Source: Lentibacter algarum (lineage in GTDB: Bacteria; Pseudomonadota; Alphaproteobacteria; Rhodobacterales; Rhodobacteraceae). Taken from it: 64,000 bases of DNA. Under the pieces are notes generated by a model that worked only from the letters and a program-made list of their open reading frames with translations, did no database searches and was not told where the DNA came from. The DNA is taken from assembly GCF_040580765.1 (NCBI RefSeq), contig NZ_CP158687.1, forward strand, positions 558,001 through 622,000. Reading direction: 5' to 3'. This document shows positions 53,640-60,791 of the stretch, piece by piece (positions within the stretch are counted from its first letter, which is position 1; the number at the start of each line of letters is the position of its first letter). The position numbers and the translations under genes were made by a program.

Positions 53640-54833
53640 TTAGCCTTTGACGGCTTTTACAATTTTCTGCGCGCCGTCTTTGAGGTTGTCAGCGGCGATT
53701 ACATCAAGGCCCGAGTTGTTGATAATGGCTTTGCCTTCGTCAACATTCGTACCCTCAAGGCGAACAACCAGCGGAACTTTGAGGCCCACTTCTTTGACAG
53801 CAGCCACAACGCCCTCCGCGATCACATCGCAGCGCATGATGCCGCCGAAGATGTTGACCAGAATGCCTTTGACCTGTGGGTCAGACGTGATGATCTTGAA
53901 CGCCTCAGTGACTTTCTCTTTGGTCGCGCCGCCACCTACGTCAAGGAAGTTGGCTGGCTCAGCGCCGTAGAGCTTGATGATGTCCATGGTTGCCATGGCA
54001 AGGCCGGCACCGTTGACCATGCAGCCGATTTCACCGTCCAGAGCGATGTAGTTGAGGTCATACTTTGAGGCCTCAAGCTCTTTGGGGTCTTCTTCTGTGG
54101 TGTCGCGCAGTTCGGCGATGTCGGCGTGGCGGTAGACCGCGTTGCCATCAAAGCTGACTTTGGCGTCGAGCACTTTCAGATCGCCGCCGTCTGTGACGAT
54201 GAGCGGGTTGATCTCAAGCATTTCCATGTCTTTCTCAAGGAACGCTTTGTAAAGAATACCCATCAATGAAACGCATTGTTTGATCTGCGCGCCCTTGAGG
54301 CCGAGTGAGAAAGCGATGCGGCGGCCGTGGAAGGCTTGGTAGCCTGTCGCAGGATCAACTGAGAAGGAGAGGATTTTCTCTGGTGTGGCGGCTGCCACCT
54401 CTTCAATGTCCATGCCACCCTCGGTGGAGCAGACAAAAGAGATACGGCTTGTTTGGCGATCCACCAGCAGAGCAAGGTACAGCTCTGTTTCGATGCCTGA
54501 GCCGTCTTCGATATAGATGCGGTTGACTTGCTTGCCCGCTGGACCGGTCTGGTGTGTGACCAGAGTGCGTCCGAGCATGCGCTTGGCTTCTTCTGCGGCT
54601 TCTTCAACAGAGCGCGCAAGACGTACGCCGCCAGCTTCGCCAGCGTCAGCTTCTTTGAACTTGCCTTTGCCGCGGCCGCCCGCGTGGATCTGGGCTTTGA
54701 CGACCCAGAGGGGTCCGTCCATTTCGCCTGCGGCTGTTTTGGCGTTTTCGGCTTTGAGGACAACGCGGCCATCTGAAACTGGCGCGCCGTAGGAGCGAAG
54801 CAGAGCTTTCGCTTGATACTCGTGGATGTTCAT
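53640..54833 (-). CDS. sucC: Succinyl-CoA synthetase subunit beta
   Basis: This 397-residue ATP-grasp subunit binds nucleotide and forms the active enzyme with SucD, converting succinyl-CoA to succinate with ATP or GTP formation. The start [16 protein letters not shown] (ATG at 54833) is standard; the frame continues open upstream to 54890. [11 protein letters not shown] is the nucleotide loop, and the C-terminal domain has [17 protein letters not shown] and the signature [15 protein letters not shown]. It is the first gene of the sucC-sucD-sucA-sucB-MAPEG-lpdA transcript, with a double palindromic operator about 107 bases upstream. Confidence 0.97.
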
Positions 54834-54879
54834 AGAGCTTTCCCGTCTGGTTGCTGCTGTTGGGGGTTTTACTCGCACA

Positions 54880-54895
54880 AGGTTTCGCAAAACCT
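54880..54895 (-). promoter_or_regulatory. Small hairpin with TGCG loop in the sucC leader
   Basis: On the minus strand AGGTTT-TGCG-AAACCT forms a 6-bp stem closed by TGCG, which as RNA is a UNCG-type tetraloop known to be very stable. It lies about 47-62 bases before the sucC ATG, between the operator and the ribosome binding site. It could stabilise the 5' end of the message. Confidence 0.35.
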
Positions 54896-54940
54896 AAGAG
54901 TAATTTGCACTGATGAGGGGGGAATAGGGATATTTCTGCA

Positions 54941-54977
54941 TTTTGTGATCACAGGATTTATATGTGTGATCACAAAT
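54941..54977. promoter_or_regulatory. Double palindromic operator upstream of sucC
   Basis: TTTTGTGATCACA (54941-54953), 10 unmatched bases, then GTGTGATCACAAAT (54964-54977). Each half contains the perfect 10-bp palindrome TGTGATCACA (54944-54953 and 54965-54974), with starts 21 bp apart, i.e. two helical turns. The same 37-bp module, identical outside the central 10 bases, lies upstream of sdhC (60230-60266). Read on the minus strand, TATAAA falls between the two palindromes and could be a -10 element. The regulator is not identified. The arrangement suggests two dimers binding the same DNA face. Confidence 0.75.
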
Positions 54978-55073: not shown

Positions 55074-55103
55074 AAAAAAGGCGCGCCCAGAACAGGCGCG
55101 CCT
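55074..55103 (-). terminator. Rho-independent terminator of mdh
   Basis: A perfect 9-bp stem AGGCGCGCC (55079-55087) and GGCGCGCCT (55095-55103) has a 7-base loop. On the minus strand it is followed by six T (55074-55079). It lies 28 bases after the mdh stop, so mdh is separated from the sucC operon, which must have its own promoter. Confidence 0.92.
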
Positions 55104-55130
55104 CTTGGTGTCTTTTGGACAGTCTTTCGC

Positions 55131-60229: not shown

Positions 60230-60285
60230 TTTTGTGATCACACTTTCAATAAGTGTGATCACAAATGCAATTTTCTCGGCATTTG
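60230..60285 (+). promoter_or_regulatory. Double palindromic operator upstream of sdhC
   Basis: TTTTGTGATCACA (60230-60242), 10 variable bases, then GTGTGATCACAAAT (60253-60266). The two TGTGATCACA palindromes are at 60233-60242 and 60254-60263, again 21 bp apart, and outside the central 10 bases the module is identical to the one before sucC. It begins 9 bases after the mch stop and lies 141 bases before the sdhC ATG. It is followed at once by a 7-bp inverted repeat, CAAATGC (60262-60268) and GCATTTG (60279-60285), which may form a hairpin at the start of the leader RNA. Confidence 0.75.
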
Positions 60286-60407
60286 CGACAAAAAAGCAGG
60301 TCTGATCGGCGTCTCTTTGCGTGACTCTGCCTCCAAATTCGTTATCAAAGGTGTAACGCGTGCAGAGGTATTGAGTCAGCACGCATCTGAGAAGAGGATC
60401 TACTCAC

Positions 60408-60791
60408 ATGGCCAATGGCAAACCCGTAGAGCGCCCGCTTTCGCCGCATTTGACGATTTATCGCCCGCAGCTCACTTCGATCACTTCGATCCTGACACGG
60501 ATCACAGGCAACGCACTGATCATCTCAGCGCTGCTCGTGGTTTGGTGGCTCTTGGCGGCGGCTGTCGGCCCCGCCTATTATGAGATCGCCAACGCGGTGC
60601 TGACCTCGTGGTTCGGCGACATCGTCATGAGCCTCTCGGTTCTGGGCGTCTGGTATCACTACCTTGCAGGTCTGCGGCACCTCTATTTTGATGCGGGTCA
60701 CGGTCTTGATATCCCGACTGCAGAAAAGCTCGGATGGGCTTGTCTGATCGGATCGGCCGTTCTCACCGTAATCACTTTGATCATCGTATAA
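60408..60791 (+). CDS. sdhC: Succinate dehydrogenase cytochrome b556 subunit
   Basis: This 127-residue membrane subunit of complex II has three helices (about residues 35-54, 68-88 and 105-126). The family signature RPLSPHLTIYRPQLTSI lies at the N-terminus and the heme b ligand H84 in LGVWYHYLAGLRHL. With SdhD it anchors the complex and binds ubiquinone. A ribosome binding site (GAGG) is about 10 bases before the ATG. It starts the sdhC-sdhD-sdhA-lipoprotein-sdhB operon. Confidence 0.96.
   Translation: MANGKPVERPLSPHLTIYRPQLTSITSILTRITGNALIISALLVVWWLLAAAVGPAYYEIANAVLTSWFGDIVMSLSVLGVWYHYLAGLRHLYFDAGHGLDIPTAEKLGWACLIGSAVLTVITLIIV

Follow-up and report, generated by a model that had tools for sequence, protein, structure and literature searches.

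The stretch of DNA analysed here (the window, 64,000 nucleotides of the Lentibacter algarum genome) carries mdh, sucC and the succinate dehydrogenase operon. Two perfect copies of a 10-bp palindrome, TGTGATCACA, lie between mdh and sucC, and a second such pair precedes sdhC. The features of the region are as follows.

54941 to 54977, unstranded: predicted sucC operator; two perfect TGTGATCACA palindromes, 21 bp from start to start, flanked by TTT and AAT.
54944 to 54953, unstranded: sucC-proximal palindrome; read on the sucC strand it starts at 54953, 120 nt before the sucC ATG.
54965 to 54974, unstranded: sucC-distal palindrome.
60230 to 60266, unstranded: predicted sdhC operator; a pair of perfect TGTGATCACA palindromes, at 60233-60242 and 60254-60263, 21 bp from start to start, flanks as at sucC.
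53640 to 54833, minus strand: sucC, encoding the beta subunit of succinyl-CoA synthetase; first gene after the sucC operator.
60408 to 60791, plus strand: sdhC, which opens the succinate dehydrogenase operon.
55074 to 55105, minus strand: mdh terminator, a 9-bp GC-rich stem followed by a T run.

A preliminary description of this DNA had reported a double module common to sucC and sdhC, with the same 21-bp step, and both copies were found where it had placed them (54944-54974 between mdh and sucC; 60233-60263 before sdhC). Their inner 11 bases differ (GGATTTATATG and CTTTCAATAAG). As to the outer flanks said to be shared, TTT is correct; AAAT is to be shortened to AAT, the extra A being the last base of the palindrome. 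The mdh terminator upstream from sucC was likewise borne out, the 9-bp stem being perfect and followed by its T run, with a fold z of -5.3. A simple terminator scan of the two regions reported nothing, the mdh terminator included.

The window contains four exact palindromes, against 0.04 expected from shuffles. In the whole genome (3,281,784 bases) the 31-bp module TGTGATCACA-N11-TGTGATCACA occurs at exactly two places, before sucC and before sdhC. The reversed control pattern has no match in the genome, and allowing two mismatches uncovers no further module copies. Thus, both genomic copies precede TCA-cycle operons, and the idea that suc and sdh are coupled by a shared operator gains support. 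The single palindrome occurs at eight places genome-wide: four in the modules, one at the start of a gene for a GntR protein and three inside open frames. The latter three need no explanation, since about 2.1 copies per genome are expected by chance from base composition. The paired-palindrome observation is confirmed; the modules look functional and are largely explained by a known regulator.

The CRP operator (TGTGA-N6-TCACA) is ruled out as the half-sites of the palindrome are adjacent, with no N6 between them, and the FNR operator (TTGAT-N4-ATCAA) is a pattern unlike the palindrome. Comparison with both consensus forms thus agrees with the preliminary description, which had suggested, tentatively, a GntR-family protein. 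AkgR and RSP_0981 of R. sphaeroides are reportedly one protein. One report gives GTGATCAC as a motif of the sites that AkgR binds in R. sphaeroides and terms the protein a transcriptional activator (PMC6365646). In another, RSP_0981, a GntR-family protein, is the predicted regulator of RSP_0967-6, RSP_0974-6 and RSP_0965-62, the targets being succinyl-CoA synthetase, 2-oxoglutarate dehydrogenase and succinate dehydrogenase (PMC4344238).

Three observations point to membership of the window modules in the AkgR regulon. Their palindrome contains GTGATCAC; the operons they precede match the predicted targets (succinyl-CoA synthetase/2-oxoglutarate dehydrogenase and succinate dehydrogenase); and the L. 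algarum genome encodes an orthologue of RSP_0981. The akgR orthologue lies outside the window, at 2756833-2757498, and its product has GntR winged-helix and FCD domains, both above Pfam cut-offs, which bears out the suspected family. Over 207 residues the protein shares 78% identity with the GntR protein encoded after sdh in genome G051, and ygjP adjoins the gene in both genomes. In G051 the order is sucA, sucC, mdh, sdhC, sdhA, the GntR gene and ygjP, which is the order of the RSP locus tags, and the GntR protein is 94% identical to a Cereibacter ovatus relative; from features such as these we infer that G051 is R. sphaeroides. Its sdhC module is exact and its sucC module carries one mismatch. 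The L. algarum akgR, unlike that of G051, is not beside sdh. Most likely, the regulator of the sucC and sdhC modules is the AkgR orthologue. Called unidentified in the preliminary description, it would be a protein already predicted to control the suc and sdh operons and already linked to the palindrome in print (PMC4344238, PMC6365646).

In L. algarum, an exact palindrome is found at the start of the akgR orthologue, and a second copy with one mismatch 39 bp away. The comparison was extended to 110 akgR loci (L053-L082 and L084-L163; three genomes entered twice). A palindrome with at most one mismatch is present around the akgR start in 43 of them, whereas a control stretch of equal length inside the gene has none in any of the 110. 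The 67 loci without the palindrome are mostly Rhodobacter-like. The position of the site suggests that AkgR may repress its own synthesis in the lineage of the window. Eighty of the loci are named ones, which lean to Rhodobacter-like genera because they were chosen as the best matches to the G051 protein. Within this set ygjP is present in 79 loci, and a suc or sdh gene lies within 10 kb on either side of akgR in 29 of the 80 (22 of the 43 that are full-length). Modules occur in 12 of the 80 loci, each time before sucC or sdhC.

The FCD domain of AkgR reads R-x-DVTxGL near its C-terminal end (L015, 2331-3002), as judged by eye in nearly all 110 loci. Metal-binding FCD domains usually have a histidine at that position. 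This histidine seems to be missing in AkgR, and ligand binding may therefore differ.

Conservation of the module was assessed in 198 genomes of the family, one per genus. The exact module is present in 109 genomes, and 163 have it with two mismatches or fewer; the reversed control pattern is absent among the matches listed for this sample. We inspected 48 module loci: the first 40 fetched from the family sample, four from a class-wide sample and four picked from the two-mismatch list. All except three precede sucC, sdhC or, once, sucA next to mdh (45/48). The expectation that the module would be kept in orthologous promoters was correct, as it stands before sucC and sdhC of related genera. The sucA case (G177; L169, 1501-1531) has the module between mdh and sucA with no sucC in between, so that its place is tied to the operon and not to sucC itself. 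A third module copy, with up to two mismatches, was found in seven genomes, among them G042 and G115. In G042 a third module with one mismatch (L238, 1793-1823) precedes a class II fumarase gene, so that the regulon may extend to a further TCA-cycle step in some genera. In G197 the third copy reflects a third palindrome, one step further along the array. A two-mismatch module inside a fructose-6-phosphate aldolase gene of G115 (L239) is probably due to chance. Before sucC, arrays of four palindromes with steps of 21, 21 and 26 bp were seen in two MAGs, one of Gemmobacter nectariphilus and one of the Rhodobacteraceae (L115, 20205-20282; L135, 20143-20220).

An AkgR orthologue (E 1e-50 or better; hand count) is encoded by 177 of the 198 genomes. 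For the geometry of the sdhC promoter, upstream stretches were drawn from three groups: 40 module-bearing genomes standing high in the SdhC list; 11 of the 17 that have the orthologue and lack a 21-bp module at two mismatches; and 8 of the 21 without the orthologue. With the window included, stretches from genomes with the orthologue number 52. Allowing up to three mismatches, 47 of these contain a palindrome pair, spaced by 21 bp in 40 and by 20 bp in seven; the remaining five, all from genomes with the orthologue, have no clear pair. The eight stretches from genomes without the orthologue yielded no pair, the best match at a 21-bp step having six mismatches of 20. When near-perfect palindromes in the 52 stretches were counted at all distances, 35 pairs fell at 21 bp, six at 20 bp and at most two at any other distance.

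The clearest conserved block downstream of the sdhC pair is GTGAC, with TAT or TAA about 16 bases further on, fitting putative -35 and -10 boxes. In the 47 paired stretches, the distance to GTGAC, measured from where the nearer palindrome starts, is 66-69 bp in 41 and 57, 79, 79, 88 and 89 bp in five; the block is missing in one. The stretch with GTGAC at 88 bp has a further palindrome at 67. Searching for the fuller promoter pattern, present in 41 of the 52 stretches, gave a similar picture: the nearest palindrome is 66-69 bp off in 36 and 57, 79, 79, 89 and 90 bp off in five, the 90-bp case (L180) having a poor palindrome site only. The exceptions fall at about whole helical turns. In the window, the corresponding predicted elements are the following.

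60321 to 60326, plus strand: predicted sdhC -35, GTGACT, at a distance of 67 bp from the nearer palindrome (start to start); conserved across genera.
60343 to 60348, plus strand: predicted sdhC -10, TATCAA; transcription start expected near 60355.
54866 to 54898, minus strand: tentative sucC promoter region with a -10-like TAAAAC at 54866-54871; low confidence.

Relative to the expected start, the sdhC palindromes are centered at about -96 and -117. At sucC, counting from the nearer palindrome, relatives keep a TT near +56/57 and, less strictly, an AT-rich block near +80; both suggest that the promoter may be about one turn closer to the pair. A simple promoter scan reported no sigma-70 match at either the sucC or the sdhC promoter. 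The preliminary description had also pointed to a TATAAA between the palindromes on the minus strand. The hexamer is there; as a promoter it was rejected because the conserved promoter-like element lies elsewhere, about 67 bp downstream at sdhC.

The spacing of 20 or 21 bp, taken together with the 66-69-bp promoter distance and its whole-turn exceptions, suggests that a pair of AkgR dimers would occupy one face of the helix and activate transcription. Many GntR proteins are repressors, and the lone palindrome where akgR starts seems placed for repression; the pair could accordingly be a repressor operator, or serve a dual role, instead of being an activator site. The sdhC pair, however, lies about 66 bp upstream from the inferred -35 without overlapping it, at a distance that shifts by helical turns, and AkgR is called an activator in the published report (PMC6365646). 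We thus regard repression or dual action through the pair as unlikely.

Assignment of the modules to AkgR was weighed against the other GntR/FCD proteins of the window genome, which has seven FCD-domain matches; the AkgR orthologue and one control GntR gene were profiled. The module (two mismatches or fewer) is present in 160 of the 177 genomes with the AkgR orthologue and in three of the 21 without it (Fisher p 3e-13; hand count). The three genomes with a module and no detected orthologue (G019, G096 and G114) are drafts of about 210, 50 and 320 contigs. The control GntR is nearly as widespread (171/198 at E 1e-50). With seven genomes outside the listing deduced by subtraction, 154 of the 171 genomes that have it carry the module, as do nine of the 27 that do not (Fisher p 6e-10). 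Odds ratios with the module are 56 for the AkgR orthologue and 18 for the control. Since the control associates too, part of the co-occurrence is attributable to common descent and to incomplete assemblies, and the association of the control, though weaker, undercuts co-occurrence as proof of AkgR. Binding of the modules by another GntR/FCD regulator is nevertheless improbable: the AkgR orthologue is the sole GntR gene with an exact palindrome in the genome, AkgR is the protein named with both the motif and the suc and sdh operons in the literature (PMC6365646, PMC4344238), and akgR has suc or sdh as a neighbor in about half of the full-length named loci. Finally, that one genome holds two nearly identical copies at a distance of 5.3 kb might be thought to reflect a small repeat, a mobile element or duplicated promoter DNA, a notion to be given hardly any credence as the likeness is limited to the palindromes and a few flanking bases, the inner bases differ, and both copies are separately conserved at sucC and sdhC in many genera.

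The module is all but confined to the family. Among 289 genomes sampled across the class, three of the four family members and one of the 285 others have it with at most one mismatch; an AkgR relative (E 1e-40) is encoded by the four family members and by one other genome, in the latter at 36% identity. The one outside match to the module, in G344 of another family, is a 21-bp double palindrome with one mismatch (L234, 991-1021, among the 48 loci inspected); it immediately precedes another gene with GntR and FCD domains, a hint that the motif and the pairing may be common to related regulators.

On these grounds we consider it highly probable that the modules are tandem operators of the AkgR orthologue. 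One AkgR dimer would bind each palindrome, placing two dimers two helical turns apart on the same DNA face, at sdhC some 96 and 117 bp upstream of where transcription is expected to begin. From this upstream position they would contact RNA polymerase and activate the suc and sdh operons, while at the lone palindrome of the akgR start AkgR would repress its own synthesis. A more general scheme, to which we give slightly less than an even chance, is that a fixed array of two AkgR dimers is phase-locked to the promoter in most sampled genera, sometimes with three or four sites, a pair meaning activation and a single site repression. The strict pair spacing and the phase lock to the promoter may be new.

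Class I activators such as CRP act from sites upstream of the -35, at whole-turn spacing from the promoter and on the same DNA face. The sdhC pair likewise lies upstream of the predicted -35 and, judging from conservation, seems to depend on helical phase. The window modules thus resemble class I sites in upstream position, whole-turn spacing and shared face; they differ from those of CRP in protein family, in palindrome and in the two adjacent dimers inferred per promoter. The closest known system is the AkgR regulon of R. sphaeroides, alike in its GntR protein, its GTGATCAC palindrome and the same three operons (PMC4344238, PMC6365646); the window system belongs to another genus. In Pseudomonas simiae, deoxyribonate oxidation is under a GntR-like regulator, PS417_07240, which is 32% identical to AkgR and is also a proposed GTGATCAC binder; it differs in its other targets and in having a single palindrome, located 40-47 bp ahead of the start codon of its own gene (PMC6365646). 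CceR (RSP_1663), of the LacI family, is another predicted regulator of mdh and succinate dehydrogenase; its published motif, GTT-N6-8-AAC with degenerate outer bases, is unlike TGTGATCACA (PMC4344238).

Because the palindromes shift, relative to each other and to the promoter, by about one base or by a whole turn, the arrangement would lend itself to a ready test of activation by a GntR/FCD protein. In the reading favored here, a single regulator would control both the lower TCA cycle and complex II across a large family of bacteria.
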